DNA of 36,200 nucleotides from Clostridia bacterium. Lineage in GTDB: Bacteria > Bacillota_A > Clostridia > Christensenellales > Aristaeellaceae. A program made the translations under genes and the position numbers. Of this stretch, positions 4,097-30,347 are shown one piece after another. The notes beneath the pieces are model-generated. The model was not told the DNA's origin. It ran no database searches and saw nothing but the letters and a program-made list of their open reading frames with translations. The stretch spans positions 1 through 36,200 of the forward strand of contig JAFWUC010000006.1 in the NCBI GenBank assembly GCA_017518705.1. The letters run 5' to 3'. Numbering within the stretch: the first letter of the stretch is position 1; each line of letters opens with the position of its first letter.

Positions 4097-4141
4097 AGCA
4101 TGCGACGGCACATACGGCTTATTTTCCTTCGGAGGACTCGC

Positions 4142-6463: not shown

Positions 6464-6564
6464 ATAAGCCTCCTTCGGAAACGGAACGGTCATACGGCCT
6501 TATTGGGTACAGCTTACCACATACCCGCACAAAAAGCAACCAACCGGGTTTTTGATCCCCGTTG

Positions 6565-8237: not shown

Positions 8238-8275
8238 ACCGGGGCGCGCTCATGTGAGCGCGCCCCGGTCTTTTA
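8238..8275. terminator. Bidirectional terminator, end of GH10 and of the large operon
   Basis: A perfect 15-bp inverted repeat (8238-8252 with 8255-8269) is followed by CTTTT on the plus strand. It lies between GH10 and the convergent 450-residue binding protein, and probably ends both transcripts. Confidence 0.82.
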
Positions 8276-8299: not shown

Positions 8300-9652
8300 T
8301 CAGTTGAACAGCTGGTCCAGGTTGTCCTGCACGACCTGCTTGTACTGCTCCTGCAGCTGGGCGGGAGTATACTCGCCGTCCAGGAACTGACGGAACGGGA
8401 TGTCGTTGATGAAGATCTGGATGAAGTCGACCATGGTACGGGAGCCGTACTCCAGCATGACTTCGAAGTTCTCCTCCTGCAGATCGAACTTGTTGCTGGT
8501 GGAAACATAGTGCCACTCGAGCTCTTCGGGATCGTCACGCAGGGTGGTGTCGTCGTGGAACCAGTTCACATACTGACGCAGCACGTTGTACACCAGCTTG
8601 GGATCTTCCACGTTGGAGGGGATCAGCCAGTAGTTGCTGTTGGCCAGCTGGGTGGAATTGGTCTCCGCGTTGCCGCTGGGGCCGATGGGATAAGGAATGA
8701 ACACCATGTCGAAGTCCAGGTTGGGATCGGCTTCGGTGTAGTCCTTATAGTTGTCCATGATCCAGGTGGTGATGGTGCAGAAGGCGACCTTCTTATCCCT
8801 GTACAGGTAACGGCACACATCCCAGCCGTTCTCTTCGGGAGTGGGATAGGCTACCTTGTCGGTGATATACAGATCCTGGAGGAACTTGAGGGTCTCGCCC
8901 ACTTCGGGAGAGGAGAAGTTCTCGGTAGCGGTGGCCGCTACGTAGGTGCCGTTGGACATGAACCAGTAGGGCAGGAAATCGCCCAGCCATCCGCCGTAAC
9001 CGTACACGTCGATAACGCCGTCGCCGTCGATGTCACGGGTCAGCACCTGGCAGTACTCACGGAACTTGTCCCAGGTCCACTCGCCGCGGGCGACCAGGTC
9101 ACGGGGATCCTCAAGGTTGGCATCCTCGATCATCTGCAGGTTGAAGGCCAGGTTGTACACGTGGTCCACCTGGTTCTCGGCGCCCTTGGCGTACAGCAGG
9201 GACACGGCACCGTTGCTCAGGTCAACGAAGTTCAGGATGGGGTCGTCGTGGGTCAGCAGCGGATCGTCGGGATCGAGCACGTCCCTCAGGTCGCAGGCCA
9301 GGCCGTTCATAACGGCGGGCACGCCGAAGCCCAGCTCGGCGGTGTAGATGTCGAAGTCGGGCTCGCCGGCCAGGATGGAGTTGTTCAGGGAGTCGATGGT
9401 GCCGGCGTAAGTGGGATTGACGAACTCGAAGGTCACGTTGTAGGTGTCTTCGATGGTCTTCACGTTCTCAAATCTCATTATGTCGGTCTCTTTGCCGGTG
9501 GCGCCGGGGTTGGCTTCCCAGCTCTCGTCATCGGAATCGTAGTACATGTCCCACCACACGGCAAGGGTGATGTTGCGGGGCTCGTCGGCCAACGCGGACA
9601 GCATGGAAACAGCCATCAGCGCCACCAGAAGCAGGGCCAAAATGCGCTTCAT
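8300..9652 (-). CDS. Extracellular sugar-binding protein, last gene of the large operon
   Basis: Family 1 solute-binding protein of 450 residues, expected to deliver oligosaccharide to a CUT1 permease pair. The signal peptide is type I (MKRILALLLVALMAVSMLSA, cleavage near LADE at 23) and has no lipobox Cys. The mature part shows the binding-protein pattern FENVKTIEDTYNVTFEFV (61-78), ILAGEPDFDIY and a Ca-loop-like DIDGDGVID (207-215), also seen in large polysaccharide-binding members such as AlgQ2. AGGAGG precedes the ATG. It follows the repeat protein by 53 nt and is likely cotranscribed with the permeases at 11502-13408, which I take as its partners. Confidence 0.92.
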   Translation of the reverse strand: MKRILALLLVALMAVSMLSALADEPRNITLAVWWDMYYDSDDESWEANPGATGKETDIMRFENVKTIEDTYNVTFEFVNPTYAGTIDSLNNSILAGEPDFDIYTAELGFGVPAVMNGLACDLRDVLDPDDPLLTHDDPILNFVDLSNGAVSLLYAKGAENQVDHVYNLAFNLQMIEDANLEDPRDLVARGEWTWDKFREYCQVLTRDIDGDGVIDVYGYGGWLGDFLPYWFMSNGTYVAATATENFSSPEVGETLKFLQDLYITDKVAYPTPEENGWDVCRYLYRDKKVAFCTITTWIMDNYKDYTEADPNLDFDMVFIPYPIGPSGNAETNSTQLANSNYWLIPSNVEDPKLVYNVLRQYVNWFHDDTTLRDDPEELEWHYVSTSNKFDLQEENFEVMLEYGSRTMVDFIQIFINDIPFRQFLDGEYTPAQLQEQYKQVVQDNLDQLFN

Positions 9653-9705
9653 AAGTGTTATATCCTCCTATTGCTGTTATAGTAATATCGGACGCACGCC
9701 GATGC

Positions 9706-11436
9706 TTACATAGCCGTGCCTACGGCTACGCTGTAAACAGTCCAGGGCTGGGAGCCTTCGCACTCCAGCTTCACGTTCCAGGTGGCCTTGTCTTCGCCGC
9801 ACACTTCGACGATCTGCTCGTAGGTGATCTGCGCGATCTTGCCGTCACTTACAGCCTTTCCGTCGTTGCCTACACGGCTCCAGCCGGCTTCGGCCCAGGG
9901 CAGTACGATCCATACGTCGCCGCCTTCGCACTCGTAGGACACGGTGATCACGCTGCCGGGCACCAGGGCATCGATGAACTCCTGAGGCATCTCGAAGCCG
10001 CTCTGGCTCCAGGCGCCCGCGGAAGTGGCGAAGCCGGGGAATTCGACCAGGTTGGTCAGGCCGTAAAGCTCGGCCTTCTGGCCAACGCGCACGCTGTACA
10101 CGGTCCAGGGAGAGGAACCTTCGGCCTGGAGCATCACGTTCCAGGTAGCCTTGTCTTCGCCGCACACCGCTTCGATCTGCTCATAGGTGATATAGGCTCT
10201 GTCGCCGATGATGAGGGCTTCGTTCTGAGCTACGCGGCTCCAGCCCGCTTCGGCCCAGGGGAATACCAGCCAGATGTTGCCGTCTTCGGACTCGAAGGCG
10301 ACTTCGATCACGCTGCCGGGCACCAGGGCGTCGATGAACTCGGGAGTCATCTCGATGCCGGTCTGCGCCCAGGCGGCGCCGGACACGGTAAATCCGGGCA
10401 GCTCAACGGCGTTCTTCAGCACGATCTGGTTGGCTCTCTGGCCTACGCGCACGCCGTATACAGTCCACTCGCTGCCGGCTTCGCACTGCAGCATCACGTT
10501 CCAGGTGGCCTTGTCTTCGCCGCAGAACTGCTCGATCAACTCGTAGGGGATCTGGGCGATGGTGTGGCTGTTGTTGCGGGCGTCAACTCCGTTGCCGCAG
10601 CCGCCTACGCGCATCCAGCCCGCTTCGGCCCAGGGGAATACGATCCACATGGAGCCGTCGGCGCTCTCGTAATCCACTTCGATCACGCTGCCGGGAACCA
10701 GGGCATCAATGAACTCCTGAGGCATCTCAAAACCGGCCTGCGCCCAGGCGCCGGCAGAGGTCTTGAAGTTCGGGAACTCTACCACGTTGGTGAGGGCGAC
10801 CAGGTTGCTCAGGTCGCGCCCGCTGTCGGGAGCGACGTACTCGGCGGAGAGATCCAGCGCGATGGCGTTGCCTTCCGCGTCGAGGAACTTGATGTTGTCC
10901 AGGTAGAAGGCTACGGGTTCGCCGCCCGCCTGATCCTCACGGGAGATGGCAAAGAAGTTGCCGGCCTCGGGCAGGAACGCGCCTGCGAACTTGTGCACGA
11001 TGGTGCGTGGGTTCTTTTTGGCCAGATATACGGACCAGTCGGCGGAAGCTTCCGCGTTGTCCTCGCCGGTAAAGTCATAGAACTTTCCGGACACGGCGTG
11101 GAACTTGCCGTCAGAGGCCAGGTCCAGGGCGAAATCTACGCTCACCGCGGCCACGTCAGCCAGACGCTCGCCCAGCAGGCCTTCGATGTTGAAGGCTACG
11201 TAGGGGACCTTGGCGTCGGGAGAGAGAGTGACCTTGAGGGCTTTGGAACCGTTGAACTCAGCGACCTCGAGGGTGCTGGCGTCAGCGTTGGCCTTGCCCT
11301 TCCAGAGGCCAAGGAAACCGAACTCGCCGTCTTCGAAGTCGATGACGTCGACTGCGGCAGTTTCCTCTGCGCTCACCCAGGAGCACATGCCGAGCGCCAG
11401 AACGGCGACCAGCAGCCAGGAAACAAATTTCTTCAT
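9706..11436 (-). CDS. Secreted protein with three Trp-rich tandem repeats, putative glycan binder
   Basis: I do not recognise a named family. The 576-residue product has a signal peptide (cleavage near VSA|EE at 23), an N-terminal beta-rich domain (about 31-195, opening VDVIDFEDGEFG, like galactose-binding-fold modules) and three repeats at about 214-333, 339-453 and 459-574. Each repeat has six conserved Trp in the same order: GAW, W before IVFPW, FPW, EAGW, ATWNV, and WTVY (for example W231, W264, W269, W274, W312, W324). Each also shares EFIDALVPGSVI and CGEDKATWNV. There is no catalytic domain, LPXTG, SLH or dockerin; the protein stops at the end of repeat 3. AAGGAGG precedes ATG 11436. 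Lying between the permeases and a binding protein, it may capture glycan for import. The gene is certain, the role is inference. Confidence 0.85.
   Translation of the reverse strand: MKKFVSWLLVAVLALGMCSWVSAEETAAVDVIDFEDGEFGFLGLWKGKANADASTLEVAEFNGSKALKVTLSPDAKVPYVAFNIEGLLGERLADVAAVSVDFALDLASDGKFHAVSGKFYDFTGEDNAEASADWSVYLAKKNPRTIVHKFAGAFLPEAGNFFAISREDQAGGEPVAFYLDNIKFLDAEGNAIALDLSAEYVAPDSGRDLSNLVALTNVVEFPNFKTSAGAWAQAGFEMPQEFIDALVPGSVIEVDYESADGSMWIVFPWAEAGWMRVGGCGNGVDARNNSHTIAQIPYELIEQFCGEDKATWNVMLQCEAGSEWTVYGVRVGQRANQIVLKNAVELPGFTVSGAAWAQTGIEMTPEFIDALVPGSVIEVAFESEDGNIWLVFPWAEAGWSRVAQNEALIIGDRAYITYEQIEAVCGEDKATWNVMLQAEGSSPWTVYSVRVGQKAELYGLTNLVEFPGFATSAGAWSQSGFEMPQEFIDALVPGSVITVSYECEGGDVWIVLPWAEAGWSRVGNDGKAVSDGKIAQITYEQIVEVCGEDKATWNVKLECEGSQPWTVYSVAVGTAM
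9726..10800 (-). repeat. Three tandem coding repeats, periods 360 and 375 bp
   Basis: The segment beginning GATCACGCTGCCGGG on the plus strand recurs at 9946, 10306 and 10681. Stretches of about 45 bp around it differ by only a few bases, and most other parts remain alignable. The periods are whole numbers of codons (120 and 125), so the repeats are in-frame duplications inside the coding region. Confidence 0.85.
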
Positions 11437-11457
11437 GATGTACCTCCTTTATTATTA

Positions 11458-11473
11458 TGCCTGAATCAAGGCA
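11458..11473 (-). other. Small intercistronic hairpin before the repeat-protein gene
   Basis: TGCCT (11458-11462) and AGGCA (11469-11473) can pair across 6 nt in the 65-nt gap between the permease and the repeat protein. It has no T run and does not look like a terminator; it might limit decay or upstream readthrough. Confidence 0.3.
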
Positions 11474-11501
11474 CAATTAACTGTGTTGAATGCTGCGGCG
11501 T

Positions 11502-12470
11502 TTAACCGACTATGCCGCTGCGCTCCACGCCTTCTATGAAGCGGCGCTGCAGGATGATGTAGATCGCCACCACCGGGATCAGCACCAGCACCACGCCCGC
11601 GTTAAAGTACAGCTGCAGTTCCCTTAAGCTGTTTATCCTTTCGGCGTTCGCTATGACGTTGATCAGCGTGTCGAGCTTGCGGGTTATCAGAAGCGTGGAA
11701 GGCATGTTGAAAGTGTTCGCGAAGAAGGAGTCGTTGTACTGCCAGACGATGGAGAACACCGCCACGGTGATTATGGCAGGGGAAGCGTTGGGCATCATGA
11801 TCCTGAAGTAGGTGTACCAGCTGTTCGCGCCGTCCACCAGCGCCGCTTCCTCTATCTCCTTGGGCAGTCCGCGGAAGAACTGGGTGAAGATGTATATGTA
11901 CAGCCCACTCTTAAGCCCGCAGCCGAAGGCGGTGAGGATCAGCGTGGGCCACGCCGTCTTGTGCAGGTTCGTCACATGGCTGCCTATCCCGAAGTACCTG
12001 AAGGTCATATACAGCGGGAACTGTATGGTGTTGAGCGGCACGACTATCATCACCACGATGCAGGCGAACCACAGCTTCTTTAGCGGGAAATTGTACCTGG
12101 CAAAGCCGTAGCCCGCCATGGAGCAGATAAGCAGCTGCAGAAGCGTCACACCGCAGGTATACAGCAGCGTCCTTCCCAGTATGGGCAGGTAATCCATGTA
12201 CTTTATCGCCATGGCATACCTTTCCAGCGTGGGGTTTATGGGTATCGTGAACACCATGGGGTTTATGGAGTCCTGCGTGGAGAAAAACGAGTTGGAGATT
12301 ATGCCTATGACGGGCGCCAGTATCACATAGCTTATGCCTATGATGATGACCGTCCTGAACAGGCTTAAAACGAAGCCCTTTGCGGTATTGAACGCCTTGC
12401 TCTTTTTGTCATTATACAACGCCGAGGAGCGGAATCCCTGCAAAGACGCCGATATTTTCGAAGATAGCAT
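11502..12470 (-). CDS. CUT1 sugar ABC importer permease, MalG/AraQ type
   Basis: Inner membrane permease of 322 residues with about six transmembrane segments and a cytoplasmic N-terminus of about 35 residues. The EAA loop that docks the ATPase is at about 207-230 (EEAALVDGANSWYTYFRIMMP). A GGAGGG site lies 8 nt before ATG 12470. It starts 14 nt after the stop of its partner permease, so the two are co-translated neighbours. The likely substrate-binding partner is the 450-residue protein downstream. Sugar specificity is not visible. No ATPase gene follows. Confidence 0.94.
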   Translation of the reverse strand: MLSSKISASLQGFRSSALYNDKKSKAFNTAKGFVLSLFRTVIIIGISYVILAPVIGIISNSFFSTQDSINPMVFTIPINPTLERYAMAIKYMDYLPILGRTLLYTCGVTLLQLLICSMAGYGFARYNFPLKKLWFACIVVMIVVPLNTIQFPLYMTFRYFGIGSHVTNLHKTAWPTLILTAFGCGLKSGLYIYIFTQFFRGLPKEIEEAALVDGANSWYTYFRIMMPNASPAIITVAVFSIVWQYNDSFFANTFNMPSTLLITRKLDTLINVIANAERINSLRELQLYFNAGVVLVLIPVVAIYIILQRRFIEGVERSGIVG

Positions 12471-12484
12471 TCCCTTATCCCTCC

Positions 12485-13408
12485 TCAGTTGTAGTAGAAC
12501 GCCCGCTTGTTGAGCAGGTATACTATCAGTGCGAGTATAAGACAGGTGGCCAGGGTGGACGTGATGGAGAACACGGCGGACAGCCCGTAATTGTACTTCT
12601 GATACGTATCCGCGGCCAGGGTCACGATGTCGCTGGTGGTGAACTTATCCACCACGGTGTAAATGGTGTTGGTGATAATGTGGGGCATCACCATCGGTAT
12701 GGTGACCTTCCACAGCGTCTCGTAGCCGGTCGCGCCCTCGATCTTGGCCACCTCGTACAGTGAGCCGGGAATGGACTGGAGCGCCGCGATGAACAGTATT
12801 ATCTGCACGCCGGAGCTCTTGATTATGGACGCTATGCGGTTCACCGCATCCACCACGTACCCCAGCACGGACTGGGGCAGCGCCAGGTCTCCGAACAGCT
12901 GTATGTAGTAGGACACGGACACGCTGCCCGCCTCCGCTATCTCGGACGTGGACGAGGCTACGCCGGTGGCCATCAGCTGGGTCGCGCGGTTTATGGCGTC
13001 TCCCACGGCGGAGGAGCTCAGGATTATGGGCAGGAAGAATATGGCGCGCACCACCGCCCTGCCCTTGAACTTGCGGTTCAGCAGCAGCGCCACGAACAGG
13101 CTGAAGAAGATGATCATGGGCAGGTCGATCATCATGTTGATTATGGACGAGGTCAGCGTCTGCTTGAAGCTGGCGTGGGAGGTGAACGCGTCGATGTAGT
13201 TCTGGAACTTGACGAAAATGTCCTGCCTCACGCCTGTGCCGGCGTCGATCCTGATGTCCAGGAAACTGAACTGGCCCAGCTGCACCAGGCAACCCACATA
13301 GAAGACCAGAAAACCGATCAGCCACGGGAGTATGAAGGTGTATCCGCGCAGCGCGTTCTTTTGCTCATAGGTGAGCCTGAAGCGCTTTTTCCCCGCCGCT
13401 TTGTTCAC
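12485..13408 (-). CDS. CUT1 sugar ABC importer permease, MalF/LplB type
   Basis: Membrane permease of 307 residues, first of a pair. The EAA loop is at about 218-242 (YEVAKIEGATGYETLWKVTIP). Between the early and later membrane segments there is a longer loop (about 143-185, Ser/Ala/Glu-rich) than is common in this family. The start is GTG at 13408; its GTGA overlaps the TGA stop of the DUF5696-like gene by 4 bases, and GGGAGG lies just upstream, so translation is probably coupled to that gene. This links the unknown membrane protein directly to an importer. Confidence 0.93.
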   Translation of the reverse strand: MNKAAGKKRFRLTYEQKNALRGYTFILPWLIGFLVFYVGCLVQLGQFSFLDIRIDAGTGVRQDIFVKFQNYIDAFTSHASFKQTLTSSIINMMIDLPMIIFFSLFVALLLNRKFKGRAVVRAIFFLPIILSSSAVGDAINRATQLMATGVASSTSEIAEAGSVSVSYYIQLFGDLALPQSVLGYVVDAVNRIASIIKSSGVQIILFIAALQSIPGSLYEVAKIEGATGYETLWKVTIPMVMPHIITNTIYTVVDKFTTSDIVTLAADTYQKYNYGLSAVFSITSTLATCLILALIVYLLNKRAFYYN

Positions 13409-15996
13409 TTTTCCTCACCTCCCACTACCAGATAGTCCTTCGCCGGCACGCTGCGTCCGTCCGCCTGTGCCTCTTCTTCCGCGTAGTTTACGTATATCAC
13501 CGCACCGTTTGAGTAGCTGACCCTGGACAGGGTGTCCGAGAGCCTCTCGTAGGCGGTCATCCGGGCGCCTTTCACGTTCTTAAGCGCGCTGTTCACGTAT
13601 TCGTAGTCGCTGACCGCATCGTCCTTCCAGGCGGAGAAGGTCGTGGCGAAGTTTTCGTTCAGCCCCGTGTACTTCATTTCCGCTGAGTCTTTCCAGGTGA
13701 AGGTGTAATGCGGTGAAGCGCCGTACTCAACCAGGTGCAGCAGGTCGGCGCGTTTGTCGGAAGTCTGGCTCAGGTTGATCGCTTCCCCGCAGTATTCCGC
13801 CGAACCGTGGACGATCAGCTGCCACAGGGGTATCTCATCGTCAAGTATGGGATAGGGCGTGCGGCTCATTGGGGCGTTGATCACGTGCTCAGCGTAAGCC
13901 AGGGAATAATCGTTGCCGCCGGAGACCATCAGCTTCCGGTCTTCGCCCTTTATTATCCTGAACGCGTCCTTTACCAGGTCCAGCGCGGCTTCGCGGTTTA
14001 TCACGTTGGTGCGCCGCTTGTCCGCATGCACTTCGTTTGCCAGGTCCCTGAGGCTTAAGCTGTCAAGCCCCAGCCTGTCCGCGCCGGAAGCGAGGGATTC
14101 GGCGTATCTGGGCAGGAACTTGGGCGAAAGCAGCATGTACACCCGCTCCCTGTTGCCGACCACTCCGGTCCTGCGCAGGGTCACCGGGTTTATGACGCCC
14201 AGTTTCACCACGTAACCCTCCGCGTAATAGCGGGAGGCTTCCTGGCTGGGCTTGAAGTGCTTGGCTATGTCCGTCACCAGCTGTACCGCGGCGTCCGGGT
14301 AAACGGTCGCGCCTGCCTGCTCAGCCGTTTGGTTCAGCCGCTTAAGGCCGCTTTTGCCGCCCAGGGTGCCCAGCACGCTTATGTCCGACACCGGGTTATG
14401 GTAATACCCGCCGTTCATCCAGCCCTGCAGGTTTACCTTCTGATTGCTTATGCCCTGTTCCGCCAGCGTTTTTATAATCTCGCCCGCGTTTGCGAACGTG
14501 GTCATGGGCAGCACGCGCATGTACTGTATGCCCACGAAGTGCGCCGTCTCCTTTACGCCGCCGATCACGTCGTAATAGAAGGGTATGTTCCCCGTTTCAG
14601 CGGACAGGGCAAGCGCGCCTTCGTCGATGAGCCGCTGCCTGTAGGCGGCGGCGAGCCCGTTGTAGCCACTGTTTTCCTCGGTCAGCAGGGTGTACCTCAC
14701 GCGGCAGTCCACAGGATACAGGTCCTTCTCCGCCACGATGACCTCTTCGTTGGTGATCATGAGCGTATCGGTCCTGCGCAGGTTGAAGCTGAAGTACGCG
14801 AAGTTGTAGCTGTTGTTGCGGCCCGCCACGTCCGCCACCAGGTTCGCCAGGGAGGCTCCCCTCTCGCATGTGGCGAGTATGCCAGTCTTTTCGCGCATTA
14901 TGCCGAAGAGCGCCAGCCGGGCGGTCTCGGCGTACTGGATGGCGGTCAGGTCGCTGTCCACCAGGTCCATATCGTATACGCTCTTGTTATACTGCGGGAA
15001 AGAGCTCTTGCCGTTGTTGAAGCGCATCAGCGATCCGCTGCCGTCGGGAAGCACTATATAGCCGCTCTCCTGGCTGCCGGCAGCCCCGAAAAACGGCAGG
15101 AGCTGTATGACTCTGATCTTGCCGCCGCCGAACTCGCGTATGCCTTCGTAAGGTATGCAGACCTCGACTCCGTCGCCGGTGAGCCGCCATTCGAGGGCGA
15201 TGCTGAAGGACAGCGCTTCGCTTTTCTCTTCCTCGTCGTCAAGTATCCTGAGCGCCTGCATCTCCTCGTAGTCCTCCAGCGTGAAGCCGGCGGCCTGGGC
15301 GTCCTGGTCTATCATCTGCTTGTTCCTTAAGGTGACGCCCTGGCTCTTCAGGAGATACAGCCCGCTTTCCTCGTCAAGTTCGTACGCTTTCGCGGCCGCT
15401 TTGCGCCCTGTCTGTGAAAAGATGTCGTACCATTCCTTCGTCATCACGTCCGGCACAAGCAGGAGCTTTTCGTTGGAAAGGTTGTATACGACCCTCACGC
15501 CGCCCGGTATGGACTCCACCGCCATCTGGCCGTTGGCCACGGCTTTGGCGTAGCTGCTCCAAGCGGTGCCTTCCTTGGCGTTGGAGTCAAGGTAGCTGAG
15601 TATGAACTGGCTTTTCAGGTTTTCCTGGTTGGAGGTGCGGGCGATTGGGTCCTTGGACGCGTCCGGCGGATTGGAATACACCGTTTCGCCGTTGCGTTTG
15701 TCGAACACCGCCACTTCCGCCGTGTCGGGCTTTATGTACAGCGCCGCGCCCTCGTTTTCGGCGGCCAGCTTGTAGCCCGGCACCGCTTTCAGGCTATCGG
15801 CAAGAGGCTCGAAATCCTGACCATCGGCGTATTCTTCCGGAGCTTCGACTATGCTTTTATACGCCGTGTAGAAACGGTAGTTCGCCAAAAACCACCACAG
15901 GTAGCCGCCTCCGGCCAGGAGCGCGACCGCGAGGATCACGGCTATTATCCTTTTCGCCTTGGGGGAAAGCACCCTGGTCACTTCTTCGTTTTCCAT
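13405..15996 (-). CDS. Membrane-anchored DUF5696-like protein, putative TIM-barrel enzyme
   Basis: Product of 863 residues with one transmembrane segment (about 16-37) after a short cytoplasmic tail, so nearly all of it should face outside. Residues 80-460 look beta-rich (for example GYIVLPDGSGSLMRFNNGK at 312-330). Residues about 470-780 alternate strands and helices as in a TIM barrel, with acidic residues at strand ends (LDSLSLRDLANEVHAD 644-659, LMVSGGNDYSLAYAEHV 689-705, WQLIVHGSAEYCGEAIN 725-741). From memory this matches DUF5696, often found near sugar ABC importers; I could not check it. I start at ATG 15996, 14 nt after the previous stop and preceded by GGGAGGG. A glycosidase acting at the membrane is plausible but unproven. 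Confidence 0.8.
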   Translation of the reverse strand: MENEEVTRVLSPKAKRIIAVILAVALLAGGGYLWWFLANYRFYTAYKSIVEAPEEYADGQDFEPLADSLKAVPGYKLAAENEGAALYIKPDTAEVAVFDKRNGETVYSNPPDASKDPIARTSNQENLKSQFILSYLDSNAKEGTAWSSYAKAVANGQMAVESIPGGVRVVYNLSNEKLLLVPDVMTKEWYDIFSQTGRKAAAKAYELDEESGLYLLKSQGVTLRNKQMIDQDAQAAGFTLEDYEEMQALRILDDEEEKSEALSFSIALEWRLTGDGVEVCIPYEGIREFGGGKIRVIQLLPFFGAAGSQESGYIVLPDGSGSLMRFNNGKSSFPQYNKSVYDMDLVDSDLTAIQYAETARLALFGIMREKTGILATCERGASLANLVADVAGRNNSYNFAYFSFNLRRTDTLMITNEEVIVAEKDLYPVDCRVRYTLLTEENSGYNGLAAAYRQRLIDEGALALSAETGNIPFYYDVIGGVKETAHFVGIQYMRVLPMTTFANAGEIIKTLAEQGISNQKVNLQGWMNGGYYHNPVSDISVLGTLGGKSGLKRLNQTAEQAGATVYPDAAVQLVTDIAKHFKPSQEASRYYAEGYVVKLGVINPVTLRRTGVVGNRERVYMLLSPKFLPRYAESLASGADRLGLDSLSLRDLANEVHADKRRTNVINREAALDLVKDAFRIIKGEDRKLMVSGGNDYSLAYAEHVINAPMSRTPYPILDDEIPLWQLIVHGSAEYCGEAINLSQTSDKRADLLHLVEYGASPHYTFTWKDSAEMKYTGLNENFATTFSAWKDDAVSDYEYVNSALKNVKGARMTAYERLSDTLSRVSYSNGAVIYVNYAEEEAQADGRSVPAKDYLVVGGEEK

Positions 15997-16010
15997 AAAT
16001 GTCCCTCCCC

Positions 16011-18137
16011 TTAAGTGCGGAAGATGAGTTCCGTGTAGATGTTGCGCAGGAAGCTGTACACCTGGGTTATGAAGTTCAGCACCAGCATCGCCAGGAATAT
16101 GATTATGAATACCGCGACCACCGTGATGAACAGCGTTATCAGCGTTTTGCCCAGGGTGTAGTTGTGCACCTGCATTATGCCTATGAGCATCAGTATCAGG
16201 CTGTACGCCATGCCAAGGCCCATGAGTATGTAATAGAACGCTTCCTCGTTCTCCGCCACTCCCTGCGAGACCACGGTCGCCAGCACCGTGGTGCATATCA
16301 TGGGCACCAGCGAGTAGCCTATGGCGATCATTATGTCCTTAAAGCGGCCTTCGCCCTCCATAAGGCAGGTGACCGACCAGTTGCCCACGCACAGTATGAA
16401 GTACAGAAGCAGCACGCCCGCCATTTCGGCGATCATGTTCACCGAGCGCGGCTCGATGTCGTTCACCACGAAGCTGGAATAGATGCGGTTGCAGGAGAAC
16501 GCCACCGCGTACACTATCACCAGCAGCAGCGCTATCCACACGCTGCCCCGCTCCTGGTGGCGGATCCAGTAAAAGCCCTCATTTGGATGGAAAACCGTAT
16601 AGAACAGGTACTTCCAGCGTGCGTTCACGGGCAGTTCGCGCCTCGCCTTCTCGTTTGCGTCCTTTTTGGGCCGTTTGAGCAGTTTGGGCGACATGAGCTT
16701 TTTCCAGACGATGAAAAGCAGCACCAGCGCGACAACACCCGTCAGTATCCAGGAGAAATTGCTCCTTAATACCTCGTTCCTCCAGCGCTTGAACGCCACG
16801 GAGAAATACGTGCGGTTCATGCCACGGCGCAGGTACGTCATCGCCCTTGCGTTGTCCCCCGCGGAAAGATAGGCTTTGCCTATGCCCGCGTTGGCCAGTT
16901 CGTTGTTTTCGTCCAGACGCAGCACTTCCTGCCACATGGGCACGGCCAGGCTTTCGTCTCCGTCGTACCTTAAGCCCACCGCCCTGTTGATCAGAGAGCC
17001 GTACTCGGTCTCCGAGAACACGCTGATGTTGCCCTGCAGGTTGTCCAGCACCAGCAGCCGGCTGCCCTCCTGCTCTATCGCCACGGGAGCCCTGAAGGTG
17101 CCTTCCTGGGTGCCAATGCCGCCGAAAATGTACAGCAGGTTGCCTTCGTGGTCATATGTGAACACGCGTCCGCGGCGGGCGTCCAGCAGGGAGTAGATGC
17201 CGTGATCCCGGTACACCACGTCCACTATCTGGCTGGGTCCGGAATAATTGCCCACCTGACCGAACACCAGGTCGCCGCCCAGGTTCTCCTTTGAGCCGCG
17301 CAGTATCACGTCCTCGCCCTTGGGGTTCAGGCGCCGCACGGCCTGTATGCCGTCGGTATCCTTGTTGGAGGCGTAAATGAAGCCCTCAGAGTCCACGTCT
17401 ATGCCCGTAAACTCGGTGGGTATGAACAGCTGCTGCTTGGAACGCTCCGCCTTGGTGGACAGGCGGCGCCAGATCTTTTCCCACAGGCTGATCTTTACGT
17501 TTATGGTGCCGAAAAAGCCGGTAAAGTCGCCTTCCGAGGAGAATACCATTATGCCCTGGAAAGTGTTCTGCGCCACGCAGTACACCCTGTCCGCGTAATC
17601 CACGGACACCCTTAACGGCGTGAACACGAACTTCTCGTCCAGCACGTCACCCTTGGGATCCATCACATACTTGACGAAGCTGCCGTCCAGCTCCAGCACC
17701 ACTATCCTGTGGTTCTGGGAATCCGCAACGTACAGCTGCCCGTTCTGGGAGACCGCCACTCCGTAGGGGGAGCTGAAGGTCTGCGGGCCTTCCGGAGTCT
17801 CGAAGCCGTCGACTATGCCCAGCACGGTCTTAAGGTCTTCCGCCACCACCACTATGCGGTTGTTGCCGGTATCGGCTATGTACAGCTTGCCGTCATCCGC
17901 CACGCAGAAGTCCCTGGGCGCCTTAAGATCGCCCAGAGGCGCGCCCTGCCAGATCAGAGTGGCGCCCGACACGCTGAAGTCCAGCGTATAAGGAGAAGGC
18001 GTGTAGAGTATGTTGTTCCAGTAGTCGTAATTATAAGTATCGTAAGGCTGGCCGCCGTCCGCCAGCGCGCAGGGCAGAAGCACGCACACCAGAAGCGCGG
18101 CGCATATGATTCTTACCAAAGCCGAATTCTTTTTCAT
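16011..18137 (-). CDS. NHL-propeller and Yip1-like membrane fusion protein
   Basis: Product of 708 residues. A signal peptide (about 1-26) exports an NHL-type beta-propeller (about 60-375): repeats such as APRDFCVADDGKLYIADTGNNRIVV (73-97) and SPYGVAVSQNGQLYVADSQNHRIVV are plain. A TPR-like helical stretch follows (about 380-440). The first transmembrane segment (462-478) leads to a basic cytoplasmic stretch and a Yip1-like domain of about five more segments (533-690). The ribosome site GAGGAGG precedes ATG 18137, 13 nt after the permease stop. NHL propellers bind ligands or proteins; Yip1-like domains are of unknown bacterial role. Placed between two permease pairs, it may organise or sense the import machinery. 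The domain reading is fairly safe, the function is not known. Confidence 0.85.
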   Translation of the reverse strand: MKKNSALVRIICAALLVCVLLPCALADGGQPYDTYNYDYWNNILYTPSPYTLDFSVSGATLIWQGAPLGDLKAPRDFCVADDGKLYIADTGNNRIVVVAEDLKTVLGIVDGFETPEGPQTFSSPYGVAVSQNGQLYVADSQNHRIVVLELDGSFVKYVMDPKGDVLDEKFVFTPLRVSVDYADRVYCVAQNTFQGIMVFSSEGDFTGFFGTINVKISLWEKIWRRLSTKAERSKQQLFIPTEFTGIDVDSEGFIYASNKDTDGIQAVRRLNPKGEDVILRGSKENLGGDLVFGQVGNYSGPSQIVDVVYRDHGIYSLLDARRGRVFTYDHEGNLLYIFGGIGTQEGTFRAPVAIEQEGSRLLVLDNLQGNISVFSETEYGSLINRAVGLRYDGDESLAVPMWQEVLRLDENNELANAGIGKAYLSAGDNARAMTYLRRGMNRTYFSVAFKRWRNEVLRSNFSWILTGVVALVLLFIVWKKLMSPKLLKRPKKDANEKARRELPVNARWKYLFYTVFHPNEGFYWIRHQERGSVWIALLLVIVYAVAFSCNRIYSSFVVNDIEPRSVNMIAEMAGVLLLYFILCVGNWSVTCLMEGEGRFKDIMIAIGYSLVPMICTTVLATVVSQGVAENEEAFYYILMGLGMAYSLILMLIGIMQVHNYTLGKTLITLFITVVAVFIIIFLAMLVLNFITQVYSFLRNIYTELIFRT

Positions 18138-18149
18138 ATCCGCACCTCC

Positions 18150-19103
18150 TCAGTCCTTCATGCCCGAGGTGGTCATGGTCTCCAGTATGGAGCTCTGGCA
18201 GATCAGGAAGAACGCTATGGGTATCGCGGCGATTATGAACGTCACCGCGGCGCCCGCGCCGGCCCTGCTCACGCCGCCGGAAGTGATCTGCTGGAGGGCA
18301 TACTGCAGGGGCTTGAGCTCCTCGCTCCTTAAGAACATGCCGCCGGTATTGCCCCACATCTGCTGGAACTGGAATATGGCCAGCGTGAGCCACGCGGGAC
18401 GGACGTTCGGCATCACTATCCTCCAGAATATGATCCAGTCGCTGGCGCCCTGCAGCCGCGCGCTCTCCATAAGGGAATCGGGCAGCTGCTCCATGAACTG
18501 CTTCATGAGGTACAGTCCCATGCCGAAGCTCCAGGCGGGCAACACCAGCGCCAGATAGGTGTTGTTTATGCCCAGCCAGGAAATTATCAGATACTGGGGT
18601 ATCTGCGTGACGGTCCAGGAGAACATCAGCGACAGCACCACCATGGAAAACAGCAGTTTCTTGCCCGGGAACTTGTTTTTTGCCAGGGGGTACGCCGCCA
18701 GGGACGCCACCACCACGTGGCCCACCATGCCGCCCACGGTGATTATTATGGTGTTGAGCACGTACCTGGAAAACGGCACCCAGCTCTCGTTCATCAGCAC
18801 GAACAGGTCGCTGAAGTTGGTGAGCGAGGGATTGCGCACGAAGATACGGGGCGGGAACTGGTATATCTCGTCCAGCGGCTTTAAGGCGTTGTTGACTATC
18901 ATTACGAGCGGCAGCACCATGAACACGCCGCAGATGCCCATCAGCATGAACAGCAGGGTGTTTCCGGCCACGGAGCGGTTAAGCTTCTTTTCGCCGGACT
19001 TGCGCTTCATTTTACGTTCGAGCTTTTTGATCTTTTCGGGGCGGTTGTCCATGACTTTGCGCATGGAGACCTTCACGGTGGCGTTGGGATCCTTTTTCGC
19101 CAT
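18150..19103 (-). CDS. CUT1 sugar ABC importer permease, MalG/LacG type
   Basis: Membrane permease of 317 residues with an unusually basic, helical N-terminal tail (about 10-42, many Lys/Arg) before the first membrane segment. The EAA loop is near residue 211 (MESARLQGASDWIIFWRIVMP). I prefer ATG 19103, because AAGGGTGG is 9 nt upstream; GTG at 19112 is in frame but has almost no room for a ribosome site. The start follows the partner permease's TGA with one base between, so coupling is likely. It should pair with the permease at 19105-20040 and the 998-residue binding protein. Confidence 0.92.
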   Translation of the reverse strand: MAKKDPNATVKVSMRKVMDNRPEKIKKLERKMKRKSGEKKLNRSVAGNTLLFMLMGICGVFMVLPLVMIVNNALKPLDEIYQFPPRIFVRNPSLTNFSDLFVLMNESWVPFSRYVLNTIIITVGGMVGHVVVASLAAYPLAKNKFPGKKLLFSMVVLSLMFSWTVTQIPQYLIISWLGINNTYLALVLPAWSFGMGLYLMKQFMEQLPDSLMESARLQGASDWIIFWRIVMPNVRPAWLTLAIFQFQQMWGNTGGMFLRSEELKPLQYALQQITSGGVSRAGAGAAVTFIIAAIPIAFFLICQSSILETMTTSGMKD

Positions 19104-19104
19104 A

Positions 19105-20040
19105 TCACTCACCCACCCTTCTGAGCAGGCGCTGCACCAGCTGGTTGGTGCCCACCATAAGCAGGAACAGTATGGTCGCTATGGCGGATGCATAGCCCAT
19201 GTCCAGCCTCGTGGAGCCGTAGTCCAGCAGGTGCGTCACTATCGTGGCGCCAGAATAGTTTACGGACGGGTTGCCCGCCAGCCATATGGAGATGTCCGCA
19301 ACGGCGAAGGACTGGGTTATCTGCATGACCGCGCCGAAGAGCAGCTGCGGGCGCATGGCGGGCAGCGTCACATACCACAGCTCCTGCCACCTGTTCTTTA
19401 CGCCGTCTATCGCCGCCGCCTCGTACATGCCCTTGTCTATGGTCTGAAGACCCGCTATGAACGCCAGGAAGCCGGTGCCCAGGCTCAGCCACAGCTGCAC
19501 AATTATCAGCACGGGCATGACGTACTTTTCCGTCTGCATCCACAGTATCGGGTTGTTGATCAGGTCCAGCTTGAGCAGTATGCCGTTAAGGTAGCCGTAG
19601 CGGTCGCCGGTCAGGATCAGGTTCCAGACCATGTACGCGTTGCCGCAGATGGAGGGCGCGTAGAACACCAGCGTGAGCAGCGCCCTGACCTTGGGCTTGA
19701 ACTCGTTGATTATCCAGGCGAACAGCAGGCACAGCATGTAGCTTATGGGGCCCGTGATCACCGCGAACAAAAGCGTGTTGCGCAGGGAAATGGTGAATAT
19801 GTCGTCTTCCAGTATCAGCTTTACGTAGTTCGTCCAGCCTATCAGCCTGGGAGCCTCCAGCATGTTGAAGTAAGTGAACGAAAGGTATATGGACATCAGC
19901 ACGGGCACTACCGTAAACAGGAAAAACAGTATGAAATACGGCGCCATAAGCATGTATGAAGCCCGGTTTTTCCATATCTCGTGCCTGAGGCTGTAGCTGC
20001 GGCGCATGATGGCCGCACGTTCCTGAGTGATACTGCTCAT
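19105..20040 (-). CDS. CUT1 sugar ABC importer permease, MalF/UgpA type
   Basis: Membrane permease of 311 residues with six predicted segments. The EAA loop is at about 206-232 (YEAAAIDGVKNRWQELWYVTLP). The start ATG at 20040 follows the TAG stop of the large binding protein with one base between, and AGGAGGAGG lies about 10 nt upstream. This tight spacing makes the 998-residue protein its binding partner. It is one of two complete permease pairs in the same operon. Confidence 0.94.
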   Translation of the reverse strand: MSSITQERAAIMRRSYSLRHEIWKNRASYMLMAPYFILFFLFTVVPVLMSIYLSFTYFNMLEAPRLIGWTNYVKLILEDDIFTISLRNTLLFAVITGPISYMLCLLFAWIINEFKPKVRALLTLVFYAPSICGNAYMVWNLILTGDRYGYLNGILLKLDLINNPILWMQTEKYVMPVLIIVQLWLSLGTGFLAFIAGLQTIDKGMYEAAAIDGVKNRWQELWYVTLPAMRPQLLFGAVMQITQSFAVADISIWLAGNPSVNYSGATIVTHLLDYGSTRLDMGYASAIATILFLLMVGTNQLVQRLLRRVGE

Positions 20041-20041
20041 A

Positions 20042-23038
20042 CTAATCAGCCTCCTCCTTTTCCCCCGCCAGCGGCAGGCCGAATTCCGTGCGCTTGTAGT
20101 TGATCTCCGCGTTTATGTAGTAGATCTTGTCCATCAGTTCTTCCCTGGGGGTGTTGCCGGACTCGTTGCGCCCCTTGCTGGCGTTGTCGGTGGTCACGGC
20201 GTAGAAGGCGTTGTTCACGTTCCTCCAGGTGTAATATCCGCCGGGCACCTGGGGTATCCCCCTGACCTGCCTGAACTGCTCGGAGAGCACCTTGTAGTCC
20301 CTTACCGGCCAGGACAGGTTCGCCAGCGCTTCGATGTTGGCCGTAGCCACTCGGGCGGAGGAGCCCATCAGGGATTCCATCTCCCTGCCGTAGAGCGTCT
20401 GGGTCTCGGCGCTGGTCCACCACTTAAGGAATTCCCAGCTCGCCTCGGGCTCCTTAGTGGCGCTCATGATTATGTCCGCAAGGCCGCTGCAGCCGGTGGT
20501 GGTGTCCAGGCTGCCGTCCGCCTGCATGGTGCCGGGCACGTGGGTGAAGTCCCACAGGCCCCTGATGTCGGGAGCGGAGACCTGGAGGTTGTTGTAAGTG
20601 GTGTAGTCGGATATGATTATCGGGCACTCGCCGGTGCGGAAGCGTTCTTCCACGCTGGTGGCCTTGTCAAGACGGTAGTCCGTGTAGAACTCGCAGTAGC
20701 GCCTGAAGGTGTTTATGGCGATGTCGCTGTCCAGCGCGGACGCGTCGCCGTTTTCGGTGTAGTAGCTGCCTCCCGCCTGGTACAGAAGCATGGCGAAGGT
20801 CTGTTCGCCGGGCAGCATGCCGAACTCCATCTGGTTTTTGCTCAGCACGCTCATGGCCACCTTCACGTCGTCCCAGGTCTCGGGGACCTCCAGCCCTATC
20901 TCGGCCAGTATGTCCTTTCTGTAGAACATCATGGGGAAGGTCTGGGTGTCGGGCAGGGCGTACGTGGCGCCGTTGAACGAGAAGGGCACCAGGGCGCTGG
21001 ACATAAAGCGGGAAGAGATCTCGTCAAAGTCCTTAAACCTCGTCAGGTCCATAACGGCGTTGCGCAGACCGTAATTGACCGGGGTATCGTTTCCCGTGTT
21101 CATAACCGCGCCCGCAAGGCCGTTGGTGTTGGCCACCTGTATGGCTACGTCGGGGCCCTGTCCGGAAAGCGTGGCGCGCAGAAGCGTGTTCATATCCACC
21201 AGCTGCACGTTCACACTTATGCCCGTTTGGGGGGTGAAGCTGTCGTCGATCAGGGATTTTATTACGTTCGCCTGGTCGCGTCCGGTGCCGATCCACAGGG
21301 TGATGACCTTGTTTTCGCCGTCGTCTTTGGCGATGTTGCCCACCTGGTTATAGTCGATGATAAAGGAATTGTACAGCCTCTGGGACTCGTGGCCCAGCCC
21401 AGCGAAGAAGCCGCCCTTGTCGTTTTTGGGGTTTATATCAGTAGTGTGGATGTAGATCCTGTCTATCTGCAGGGGCTGGATGAGCACCTGGGTTATCCAG
21501 TTGCCGCAGGCGCGCACGTTGACCTTGTAGGAAGACAGCACCTTGGTAAAGCGCTCCTGGTCCTCTATCAGGTCCTCCAGCTGGTCGTTCATGGTCTTGA
21601 GCACGGTCAGTTTGTCGCTGGAGTGCCCTGCGGTCTTTTCCAGGGCGTCTATGGCGATCTCGAGTTCGCTCTTCACATGCTCCAGTTCCTGCTTGAGCCC
21701 CGGCAGGCTGCGCTCTATCTGATAGTCCCTGTACTGGTCGGGAGAGACGCCGGTGATGTACAGCACCTGGCGGTATATGCCGTTTAAGTCCAGCACGCAC
21801 TGCTGCACACGGCTGATGATCCCGGCCATGTCGCCCAGCACCACTTCCATGCGCAGAGTGTGCGCGCCCTGAGTCAGGTGGATCAGGTACGGATCACCGT
21901 CACTGTCGGAAGCGGTCTCCATGCGCCAGCCCTGGGAATACCCGAAGGGCAGGGCGTCAAACTCGCTGAACGGCACCGCGCCGTCTATGAATATCCTTCT
22001 GTATACGTCTATGCCGCGCACGAAGTTCTGCTTGTCGAAGAAGGTCACGCAGTAGTCCCCTTCTTCCGGCACTTCGAACGCCCACTCGATCCACTGGCCC
22101 GCCAGCCTCCAGGGATAACCACCAATGGTGTTGTTGAGCAGGTACCTGGCGGAAGCGGGGTACACGGAGGAGGACGCCTGGTCCTGCACCGGGTACAGCA
22201 TCTGGGAGGACGTGTACTGCGCGGTCTCCGCCTCTATCCTGACGCAGATGCCCTCCGGATTTGCCGATACCCGCTCCTGTTCGGAATACGGGGCGATGCG
22301 GGCGGAGTTTTTGAACACCAGCTTCCTTATCAGCATGGGCTCCCTCAAGGAGAGCATGCCCAGGGTGTGCTGCCCCTTTTCGAGATAGAAGCTCAGGCTC
22401 TCGGAGATATAGCCGTTGCTGTCGTACACGAACGACGTCAGCCACCCGGGAGTTTCCTGGGGCGAGGGCTTGATGTCGTTGCCCTGGTTGTCCTTTACCC
22501 AAGAGATCACATCCACTCCGTTTGCGTCCGTCACATGCTCGACGCCCGCGTTCCGGTCGTTGCGCCAGATGCGGGAGAAAGTGACCAGCGAAAGCTCGTT
22601 GTATGGCAGGCGTCCGTCCAGGAAAAACGCTCTCTGTATTTCCGAATTCTTGCCCGGATAGGGGTAGTACTCTATCTCCAGGTCGTACCAGCCTTCCGTT
22701 TCCACGTCGAATTCCCACTCCGCCAGCGCTTCCTCGCCCGTAAGCAGGGATCTTCCCGTGCTGCCGTCGTAGTCGGTCAGCACCGTAAGCGCATCGCTTC
22801 CGTCTTCGGAATACCTGACTGCGTCCGCCGCCTCTATTTCGATCTCTTCGCCCGGGCGAACGTCCGGATAGGCAGCCTTATACTGTTCGTAGGACGGGAT
22901 GCTCTTGTCTATGGAGTACGTGCTGACTATTTCCTCGTACTCCTTCATGGTCTTGTCCGTCACCGCGCCGGCGCTCATAAATGAGACCGCCAGTGCCGCC
23001 GTCAGTATGAAAAGCAGTATTTTCTTCATGCCCCGCAT
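20042..23038 (-). CDS. Large fusion: two CBM-like domains plus sugar-binding protein
   Basis: Exported protein of 998 residues, about twice the usual solute-binding protein. After a signal peptide (cleavage near residue 25) come two jelly-roll domains resembling CBM6/CBM35: about 64-245 (IEIEAADAVRYSEDG, WEFDVETEGWYDLEIEYY) and 264-420 (VRIEAETAQYTSS, IEWAFEVPEEGDYCVTFF). A helical linker (about 424-510, possibly coiled coil) precedes the family 1 binding domain (about 576-960: GQGPDVAIQVANTNG, YALPDTQTFPMMFYRKDIL, PETWDDV). It should hold polymer or long oligosaccharide near the permeases that follow. ATG 23038 is used; ATG 23029 is an equal alternative. No lipobox Cys is present, so how it stays at the cell is unclear. 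Confidence 0.9.
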   Translation of the reverse strand: MRGMKKILLFILTAALAVSFMSAGAVTDKTMKEYEEIVSTYSIDKSIPSYEQYKAAYPDVRPGEEIEIEAADAVRYSEDGSDALTVLTDYDGSTGRSLLTGEEALAEWEFDVETEGWYDLEIEYYPYPGKNSEIQRAFFLDGRLPYNELSLVTFSRIWRNDRNAGVEHVTDANGVDVISWVKDNQGNDIKPSPQETPGWLTSFVYDSNGYISESLSFYLEKGQHTLGMLSLREPMLIRKLVFKNSARIAPYSEQERVSANPEGICVRIEAETAQYTSSQMLYPVQDQASSSVYPASARYLLNNTIGGYPWRLAGQWIEWAFEVPEEGDYCVTFFDKQNFVRGIDVYRRIFIDGAVPFSEFDALPFGYSQGWRMETASDSDGDPYLIHLTQGAHTLRMEVVLGDMAGIISRVQQCVLDLNGIYRQVLYITGVSPDQYRDYQIERSLPGLKQELEHVKSELEIAIDALEKTAGHSSDKLTVLKTMNDQLEDLIEDQERFTKVLSSYKVNVRACGNWITQVLIQPLQIDRIYIHTTDINPKNDKGGFFAGLGHESQRLYNSFIIDYNQVGNIAKDDGENKVITLWIGTGRDQANVIKSLIDDSFTPQTGISVNVQLVDMNTLLRATLSGQGPDVAIQVANTNGLAGAVMNTGNDTPVNYGLRNAVMDLTRFKDFDEISSRFMSSALVPFSFNGATYALPDTQTFPMMFYRKDILAEIGLEVPETWDDVKVAMSVLSKNQMEFGMLPGEQTFAMLLYQAGGSYYTENGDASALDSDIAINTFRRYCEFYTDYRLDKATSVEERFRTGECPIIISDYTTYNNLQVSAPDIRGLWDFTHVPGTMQADGSLDTTTGCSGLADIIMSATKEPEASWEFLKWWTSAETQTLYGREMESLMGSSARVATANIEALANLSWPVRDYKVLSEQFRQVRGIPQVPGGYYTWRNVNNAFYAVTTDNASKGRNESGNTPREELMDKIYYINAEINYKRTEFGLPLAGEKEEAD

Positions 23039-23057
23039 CCCGCTCCCGTCATAGCAT

Positions 23058-23063
23058 ATTATA
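23058..23063 (-). promoter_or_regulatory. -10 box for the large operon
   Basis: A perfect TATAAT (minus strand) is 20 nt before the large binding-protein gene, within ACATATAATATG. I find no good -35 box at 16-18 bp, so an activator is probably needed. The leader is very short. No terminator is visible between the GH26 gene and this point on the minus strand, so some readthrough from GH26 is possible. Confidence 0.45.
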
Positions 23064-24557: not shown

Positions 24558-24612
24558 GTCGCGCAGCCCCCTCAAAACAAATATGCCTCCATAGTTAACA
24601 ATCGCTCATGTT

Positions 24613-25938: not shown

Positions 25939-26976
25939 TTACGCCTCCCCTGCCTGTCCGTTTTGCTTTATCCGTCCGATATACCCGCTTATTTCCTGCG
26001 CAGCCTTTAAGTGGGCGGCGCGGCTGGGATGCATGCGGGAGCCCAGGTCCCCGTTGCAGTCGCTCAGGCGCAGATATCCGACCTTTCCGTCCCCTTCCGC
26101 CTTCACCTGTTCGACGGCTTCCAGTATGTATCGTTCCATATCCGTGCCACACAGCCCGTACGCCCATATGATATACGCGTTTTTCTGATGCGAGCGCACG
26201 GTCCTTATCAGTTCCGCAGCGCGTTTCGTGAACGTCTTTTCGGCGGATAAGCGGTCCTCCTCCAGCTTTATGGCGTTGGAGTCGTTGGTGCCCAGGTTGA
26301 TCACCACCCAATCCGCCTGCCTGCCGTCAAATGCGTAAGGCACGTCCCCCGAAGCTATGGGTTCGCACAGCTTATCGTATATCAGTCCCAGGCGGTGGTT
26401 TTCGTCCCCGTCCCACGCCTTCCAGGCGCCCCAGCCGCTCATTGCGACCACGCGCCTTTCGGCGTCGAGCATCCTTGCCGTCTGATGCGGGAACGCACCC
26501 ACGCCGCTCATCCAGGCCATGCGCCAGTCGGTGGCGTAAACGGGGCCCGCGCAGCCTTCGCCCACGGTGAGGCTGTCGCCGATAAACTCGATCAGCTCTT
26601 TCTTGGGTTCTGAGGGTTTGAGCTCGCCGTCCGAAAACACCGCATGGATGACGGGCGGTTCGGTCTCGTCCAGCAGGGGCTGGCAGTCCCTGACTATGGC
26701 TATTTCATGGGTAAAGGCGGGATCCATTCCGGCAAGGGCGGTGTAGACCCGCCTGCCCTTTGCAAGGGGGAAGCGGGCGATAGCCGCGCCGCCCGCCGTC
26801 ACCGCCAGCCACACGGCATGCTCGGAAGCAAAACTTTCCGCTTCGATCTCCACCTGCGTGCACGCGGCGGTAAAGCTTATCCCGCTGCCCGTCCACCACA
26901 GGCGGCAGCTTTCGGGAGAAGTCTGCTGCCTGCCCAGACGGGTGAACGCGCGCGGATCAAAACACTTCATTTCCAT
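25939..26976 (-). CDS. CE2-type SGNH carbohydrate esterase, cytoplasmic
   Basis: Deacetylase of 345 residues expected to remove O-acetyl groups from hemicellulose oligosaccharides. An N-terminal beta domain (about 20-110) precedes the SGNH hydrolase domain: Ser135 in FIGDSLTVGEGC, Gly in SGWGAWKAW (180-188), Asn231 in INLGTND, and catalytic His316 in RMHPSRAAH. This two-domain order is that of family CE2. There is no signal peptide, so it acts after import, beside the cytoplasmic GH31 enzyme. The start is uncertain: ATG 26976 or ATG 26970, neither with a strong ribosome site. It ends 2 nt before the GH5 start. Confidence 0.88.
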   Translation of the reverse strand: MEMKCFDPRAFTRLGRQQTSPESCRLWWTGSGISFTAACTQVEIEAESFASEHAVWLAVTAGGAAIARFPLAKGRRVYTALAGMDPAFTHEIAIVRDCQPLLDETEPPVIHAVFSDGELKPSEPKKELIEFIGDSLTVGEGCAGPVYATDWRMAWMSGVGAFPHQTARMLDAERRVVAMSGWGAWKAWDGDENHRLGLIYDKLCEPIASGDVPYAFDGRQADWVVINLGTNDSNAIKLEEDRLSAEKTFTKRAAELIRTVRSHQKNAYIIWAYGLCGTDMERYILEAVEQVKAEGDGKVGYLRLSDCNGDLGSRMHPSRAAHLKAAQEISGYIGRIKQNGQAGEA

Positions 26977-29247: not shown

Positions 29248-29279
29248 ATCATGACCCCGCAAGAGATTTTTTCCGTATG

Positions 29280-30266: not shown

Positions 30267-30347
30267 ATCCTGTTCCTCCGTGGTCTTGTACTAAGCGGTC
30301 TTGTCACGGATACGGTGAACGGAAGCATCGCGGGATGCCTTAAAGCC

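Follow-up and report, generated by a model that had tools for sequence, protein, structure and literature searches.

The window analysed here is a stretch of 36,200 nucleotides at the start of contig JAFWUC010000006.1 from a Clostridia bacterium (assembly GCA_017518705.1), in which nine open reading frames (ORFs) lie on the minus strand between positions 8300 and 23038. In the 5' to 3' direction they encode a solute-binding protein (SBP2), two ATP-binding cassette (ABC) permeases (P2a and P2b), a membrane protein joining an NHL propeller to a Yip1 domain (NHL-Yip1), a DUF5696 protein, a second permease pair (P1a and P1b), an exported protein with three modules of carbohydrate-binding module (CBM) family 65 and another solute-binding protein (SBP1). 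This order, with the genes overlapping or separated by 1–65 nt, had been proposed in a first-pass annotation made from the sequence, and ORF coordinates and Pfam agree with it. By coordinates, SBP2 and P2a are separated by 1 nt, P2a and P2b overlap by 8, P2b and NHL-Yip1 are 12 nt apart and NHL-Yip1 and DUF5696 14 nt, the last value assuming a DUF5696 start at 15996. DUF5696 and P1a overlap by 4, and gaps of 14, 65 and 53 nt separate P1a from P1b, P1b from the CBM65 gene and the CBM65 gene from SBP1.

Searching genome contigs with the NHL-Yip1 protein as query gave 149 relatives, the best 80 of which were read as neighbourhoods; judged by title they are Clostridia, many of them from gut and rumen metagenomes. 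The matches form an unbroken run with unchanged order and strand in 79 of the 80, with an additional second SBP2-like match in L015, and the order agrees in all 80 as far as the sequence reaches. The complete nine-gene set is present in 61 loci. The other 19 miss end genes only and none of the middle genes, and their outermost recognised gene lies at most 230 nt from the sequence end. The nine-gene order is beyond chance. Upstream of SBP2, a gene of glycoside hydrolase (GH) family 26 is found within 1.5 kb in 53 of the 60 loci with room for it, and in two of the other seven it overlaps SBP2 by a few bases.

Further afield, a smaller core is conserved. In 40 distant stretches of up to 20 kb, covering 38 of 57 strong DUF5696 places together with two paralogues, NHL(-Yip1), DUF5696, P1a and P1b are consecutive among the recognised genes without exception (40/40), and 134 of the 140 gaps within this run are no longer than 100 nt, the maximum being 302 nt. 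The SBP2-P2a-P2b trio lies directly upstream in 27 stretches and downstream in 5, and the other 8 stretches as fetched do not contain it. Since CBM65 was found in none of the 40 and an SBP1-like match lies within 2 kb after P1b in only 17, the CBM65 protein and SBP1 are accessory. NHL-Yip1 and DUF5696 belong with the permease pair P1, and SBP2-P2a-P2b would be a usually linked second importer. The first-pass annotation had seen two binding-protein/permease sets and had named the lack of a conserved neighbourhood in related genomes as a refuting result; the neighbourhood is conserved, but the second full binding-protein set falls outside the common core, because the trio is adjacent in 32/40 stretches and SBP1-like matches are confined to 17/40.

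A co-occurrence search along the lines suggested by the same annotation was carried out with DUF5696, NHL and SBP2 profiles over the same 398 genomes of the phylum Bacillota. DUF5696 matched 46 genomes at E 0.001, 39 of them above the Pfam cut-off and 37 with at least 480 bits, the latter at 57 places by hand count. G310 and G333 (26 bits) were excluded from this count because stretch L169 has no DUF5696 match and L170 a 21-bit match only. For NHL the cut was set at 200 bits, by which 55 of 93 matching genomes with weak matches (best 72.7 bits, NHL repeats) were excluded. Strong scores were obtained in 37 genomes for DUF5696, 38 for NHL and 40 for SBP2, and all 37 DUF5696 genomes have both partners. 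NHL stands alone only in G251, in an ORF at a contig end that also matches ETF_alpha and is probably a chimera, and SBP2 alone in G112, G162 and G088, on contigs of 3.1–4.3 kb where P2a or P2b runs into the contig end. The hypergeometric probabilities for the overlap of DUF5696 with NHL and SBP2 are 2e-51 and 5e-49, values that ignore kinship and are indicative only.

While the set is kept across distant genomes, its neighbouring enzymes change. Pfam tests of 9, 10, 10, 10 and 10 flanking proteins, chosen from a longer list, found GH30, GH106 with pectic acid lyase, GH31 together with GH29 and GH42, a protein resembling apiosidase, GH3, GH43, GH10-GH43, alginate lyase, and a GH35-like protein together with one resembling glucoamylase; many of the others had housekeeping or regulatory roles or gave no match. 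GH26 matches occur in the distant stretches L128, L130, L139, L141 and L149, and AraC or two-component regulators lie near some sets. Several genomes hold many copies: DUF5696 matches number 22 in G090, 11 each in G070 and G048, 10 in G143 and 8 in G173, some of them fragments, and at 550 bits or more the corresponding numbers are 13, 10, 5, 8 and 8. In G070 one copy adjoins GH106 and pectic acid lyase (L134), another GH31, GH29 and GH42 (L135), and two adjoin GH43 (L171 and L172). Annotated examples with the same order are found on plasmid pNP243 of Butyrivibrio fibrisolvens D1, downstream of GH43, and in Paenibacillus cellulosilyticus (L181), where ugpC lies directly upstream and several LLM flavin-dependent oxidoreductases come after the set; these were the only two plasmid records matched. 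The DUF5696 homologues carry names such as Paenibacillus, Cohnella and Gorillibacterium, besides Bacillaceae, e.g. Peribacillus and Halobacillus. Together with the P. cellulosilyticus operon these names bear out the link to Paenibacillus that had been suggested earlier. GH3 stands beside the set in L156–L158 (L156 and L157 tested, L158 by clustering), with AnmK in L157, and these neighbours suggest import of muropeptides or aminosugars there. In L154 the set has an Omp85/POTRA gene nearby, so a diderm member of the phylum may carry it as well.

NHL-Yip1 (16011..18137, minus strand) is a protein of 708 aa with a signal peptide, an NHL propeller and TPR region, one transmembrane segment and a Yip1 domain of five transmembrane segments. 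The Pfam scores are 59.7 bits for NHL and 66.2 bits for Yip1; TPR_19, with 16.6 bits, stays below the cut-off. The membrane layout of this protein and of the DUF5696 protein was derived from hydropathy, and the propeller and TPR region are taken as extracellular. Both domains named in the first-pass annotation are present, but the window gene joins what are two separate ORFs in 77 of the 80 close relatives; 2 relatives (L001 and L002) have the fused form. All five split Yip1 ORFs of relatives that were tested were confirmed by Pfam. Of the 40 distant loci, 19 have NHL and Yip1 in fused form and 20 in split form, and one is cut; we regard this variation between fused and split forms as a sign of linked function.

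The DUF5696 protein (13405..15996, minus strand, 863 aa) has an N-terminal transmembrane anchor at residues 17–35 and scores 641 bits in Pfam. Its start is most likely at 15996; a reading frame begun at the first ATG, 16296, would reach into the preceding gene. The AlphaFold2 model (pLDDT 90.6) has a GH129-like arrangement of beta-sandwich, TIM barrel and C-terminal beta domain, and its fold matches (Foldseek/VIA) are the GH129-like DagB and NagBb. In Pfam at E up to 1 the protein of the window has no GH129 match, only DUF5696. In NagBb the catalytic pair is Asp435 and Glu478. By alignment this Asp/Glu pair has been lost in DUF5696: the acid/base position (695) is Asn in 106 of 115 sequences and Glu in none, and the nucleophile position (651) is Asp in 91 and Glu in 2, is not acidic in 22 and differs between lineages. 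Three proteins of about 600 aa from L092, L093 and L094 are above the DUF5696 cut-off and resemble GH129-type enzymes; the one from L093 scores 513 bits to NagBb and has YLD and SSEE motifs, both of which are lacking in full DUF5696. No paper on DUF5696, or on PF18952/DUF5057/PF16479, was found among the open-licence papers searched, which is not proof of absence.

The remaining genes of the block encode importer parts. SBP2 (20042..23038, minus strand) is a secreted protein of 998 aa without a lipobox, consisting of two CBM6/CBM35-like beta-sandwiches, a helical stretch and a solute-binding domain at residues 594–883 (Pfam SBP_bac_8/SBP_bac_1). Its AlphaFold2 model is confident in the N-terminal part and of low pLDDT in the solute-binding half (mean 69 overall); Foldseek matched it to CBM6/CBM35 and solute-binding structures, Lin1841 being the nearest solved binding protein. 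SBP1 (8300..9652, minus strand; Pfam SBP_bac_1) has no lipobox either, and its nearest solved structure is the arabino-oligosaccharide-binding protein AbnE, a weak match. The permeases P2a (19105..20040), P2b (18150..19112), P1a (12485..13408) and P1b (11502..12470), all on the minus strand, are CUT1-type proteins of Pfam family BPD_transp_1. Each of the four has an EAA loop, so that by sequence the block holds the permeases and, with SBP1 and SBP2, the binding proteins of CUT1 importers. An EAA pattern that requires the final Pro misses 53 of 73 close P1b proteins, although in aligned relatives the core is intact and only the Pro differs. Pfam finds no ATPase among the nine proteins, and an MsmX/UgpC-type ATPase scores above the cut-off in all eight carrier genomes tested, a sample of genomes other than the window's own. 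The exported protein of 576 aa at 9706..11436 (minus strand), previously described as a ‘Trp-repeat protein’ of no assigned role, is made of three CBM65 modules (CBM65_1, 200.6 bits over 3 stretches) and had no match at E 1 in a search of solved structures. With these modules and the CBM6/35-like domains of SBP2, the parts for the capture role proposed earlier are in place. Neither SBP1 nor SBP2 matched NCBIfam at E 0.001, and the CBM65 and DUF5696 proteins likewise had no match there. A signal peptide lacking a canonical lipobox was seen in SBP1, the CBM65 protein and the binding protein of a third importer (30392-31984), and many relatives of SBP1 and of the CBM65 protein do have a lipobox. 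Loss of lipidation in this clade was rejected as the cause, Lgt being present in four of four related genomes.

At the downstream end of the block a hairpin of 14 pairs, 12 of them G-C, lies at 8238..8269 between convergent genes; read on the minus strand, TTCGTTTT comes after it. Due to this T-rich tail and its position it is a good terminator candidate, as the first-pass annotation held, and inside the block the terminator scan lists only weak minus-strand sites (13319 and 13288). Over the whole scanned stretch and both strands, 10 terminator-like sites compare with a shuffle mean of 14.1. The promoter assigned to the other end is more doubtful. The -10-like box at 23058..23063 (minus strand), 19 nt upstream of the SBP2 start, is indeed a perfect TATAAT, but it lacks a good -35 and is not listed at 23063-23058 by a consensus promoter scan. 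Because the same-strand run extends upstream, the end of GH26 being 58 nt away from SBP2, the box may be an internal promoter or no promoter at all.

This upstream run comprises, on the minus strand, a mannanase-like GH26 with CBM35 (23097..24575; nearest solved structure a mannanase-CBM35), a GH5 endoglucanase, a CE2-like GDSL esterase (25939..26976) and a GH31 (26998..29262). The GH5 likely extends from 24734 to 25936, as judged from relative L002 (the listed ORF reaches 26311), and its nearest match is a beta-1,3-1,4-glucanase, with several xyloglucanases lower in the list. GH31 is nearest to the alpha-xylosidase YicI of E. coli (905 bits). On the other side lie a convergent GH10 with CBM4/9 (6640..8208, plus strand) and a GH29 alpha-L-fucosidase-like gene (4991..6493, minus strand), with an APH-family phosphotransferase-like gene (4100-4933) between the latter and an Fe-ADH-like gene. 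A third importer is located upstream on the same strand as the block (29385-33924), with permeases at 32053-32967 and 32980-33924, a binding-protein-like ORF that matched nothing in Pfam at E 0.01, and an AraC regulator at 29385-30266 (minus strand); a SIMPL (DUF541) family gene lies at 34236-34937 on the plus strand. Given the mannanase-type GH26-CBM35, the GH5, the likeness of GH31 to YicI and the reported preference of CBM65 for xyloglucan over linear beta-glucan (PMC10992016), the block most likely takes up fragments of glucomannan and xyloglucan. Gram-positive polysaccharide utilisation loci (gpPULs) are defined by a degradative enzyme, a carbohydrate transport system and a regulator (PMC5320581), and the window locus has these in GH26, GH5 and GH31, the importers and AraC.

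We propose, with a probability of about one half, that the block exemplifies a gene set conserved in Bacillota for importing oligosaccharides through a composite CUT1 importer, the mechanism of which we infer as follows. Secreted GH26-CBM35, GH10 and perhaps GH5, together with the triple CBM65 protein, would cleave hemicellulose and keep it at the cell surface, and SBP2 would catch the fragments by means of the CBM-like domains and the solute-binding lobe. DUF5696 would be anchored in the membrane, its glycosidase-like cleft facing outwards, and bind glycan chains without cutting them. The NHL/TPR head could be the dock for these extracellular parts, and the Yip1 domain could keep the permeases together, as YknW is reported to do for YknXYZ. 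A shared MsmX/UgpC-type ATPase would power each permease pair; P1 would be the partner of NHL-Yip1 and DUF5696, and SBP2-P2a-P2b the second, usually linked importer. The assignment of Yip1 as a permease-associated assembly subunit is drawn by analogy, because the Yip1 protein YknW reportedly modulates assembly of the ABC exporter YknXYZ (PMC4887032) and bacteriocin ABC transporters occur together with Yip1 genes (PMC10707071); NHL-TPR would then be its extracellular dock and DUF5696 the glycan-binding subunit.

Several observations weigh against this proposal. The co-occurrence statistics take no account of kinship between the genomes. Eight of the 40 stretches are without the SBP2 trio, three of them on short contigs (L133, L142 and L145), and L178 and L179 have SBP2-P2a-P2b without NHL or DUF5696 within 20 kb, both being found elsewhere in the genome; one two-channel complex is thus not obligatory. 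In L172, whose genome has 10 strong DUF5696 matches, the order is DUF5696-P1a-P1b-NHL, and some sets adjoin non-glycan genes, such as the flavin oxidoreductases of L181. The catalytic positions were mapped by alignment alone, with the nucleophile shifted by two residues in the hhalign output, and D719 and E757 are nearly invariant in DUF5696, so that catalysis of another kind is possible.

These lone trios, and NHL-DUF5696-P1 sets that sometimes have no trio nearby, would also fit two ordinary, independent CUT1 importers with co-regulated accessory proteins, sharing an operon for one substrate class. The EAA loop of every single permease and the SBP1-like matches after P1b in 17/40 speak in the same direction. 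Yet DUF5696, NHL and SBP2 are matched in presence in 37/37 genomes and the set is retained as the enzymes change, both of which go beyond what a shared substrate needs, and 23/40 stretches are without an SBP1-like match within 2 kb after P1b, though other binding proteins may lie elsewhere; we consider independent importers a minority possibility. The first-pass annotation had included a ‘trim’ step, and DUF5696, with its GH129-like fold, might be a catalytically active glycosidase anchored in the membrane that shortens captured chains ahead of import. This is unlikely in view of the missing acid/base Glu and the variable nucleophile position, and because one subunit serves loci with very different enzymes, unlike a single-linkage exo-glycosidase. 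That NHL-TPR-Yip1 and DUF5696 form a glycan sensor reporting occupancy instead of a transport scaffold would agree with a propeller and TPR on a membrane protein without enzymatic signature and with the regulators near some sets, but is improbable, as Pfam finds no signalling domain in either protein and P1a and P1b always accompany them in the 40 loci.

A composite importer of this kind resembles several described systems in part. The mannan loci MULL and MULS of Roseburia intestinalis are gpPULs with CUT1 ABC importers (PMC6385246, PMC5320581) and share with the block a binding protein and two ABC permeases beside GH26 and other enzymes. The published passages on MULL describe one binding protein with two permeases and mention no NHL, Yip1 or DUF5696 partner. 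Like YknWXYZ, the block combines a Yip1-family membrane protein with ABC transporter genes; however, YknXYZ is a MacB-type exporter, whereas the block has CUT1 importers and a Yip1 linked or fused to an NHL-TPR ectodomain, and Pfam assigns none of the nine proteins to an HlyD- or MacB-type family, all permeases being BPD_transp_1. DUF5696 shares domain layout and fold with the GH129/GH101 and DagB-type glycosidases (5wzn, 5opq; PMC5698469, PMC8106489) and differs from them by its membrane anchor, the lost GH129 catalytic pair and its location in importer operons.

In the Bacteroidota, glycans are taken up by SusCD, an outer-membrane porin with a lid. The block has ABC permeases in place of porin and lid, and none of its nine proteins matches SusC or SusD in Pfam; the likeness lies in repeated copies per genome, some beside different enzymes, and is an analogy of working only. 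SusC/SusD homologues are also absent in R. intestinalis XB6B4 (PMC5320581). More tentatively, we speculate that the set could be a Bacillota-wide modular docking importer, in which a glycosidase fold that has lost catalysis and an NHL-TPR-Yip1 scaffold form a fixed glycan platform for two ABC channels, present in more than 10 copies in some genomes, specialised by swaps of enzymes and accessory binding proteins, and a monoderm counterpart of SusCD. Judged by title and the start of the abstract, the open-licence papers searched on Yip1, sugar importers, gpPULs, tandem ABC systems and pseudo-glycosidases gave no recognisable description of the gene set.

In conclusion, the retention of the set, in which two sugar importers are joined by three little-studied membrane proteins, across many Gram-positive bacteria beside different fibre-digesting enzymes suggests a general, undescribed machine for the uptake of pieces of complex carbohydrates. 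How glycan fragments are held and handed over at monoderm membranes is understood less well than in SusCD; the set recurs in many copies in some genomes and is found in cultured Butyrivibrio and Paenibacillus, which makes the question testable. Many sugar loci that lack an assignment could with it be annotated as a single system.

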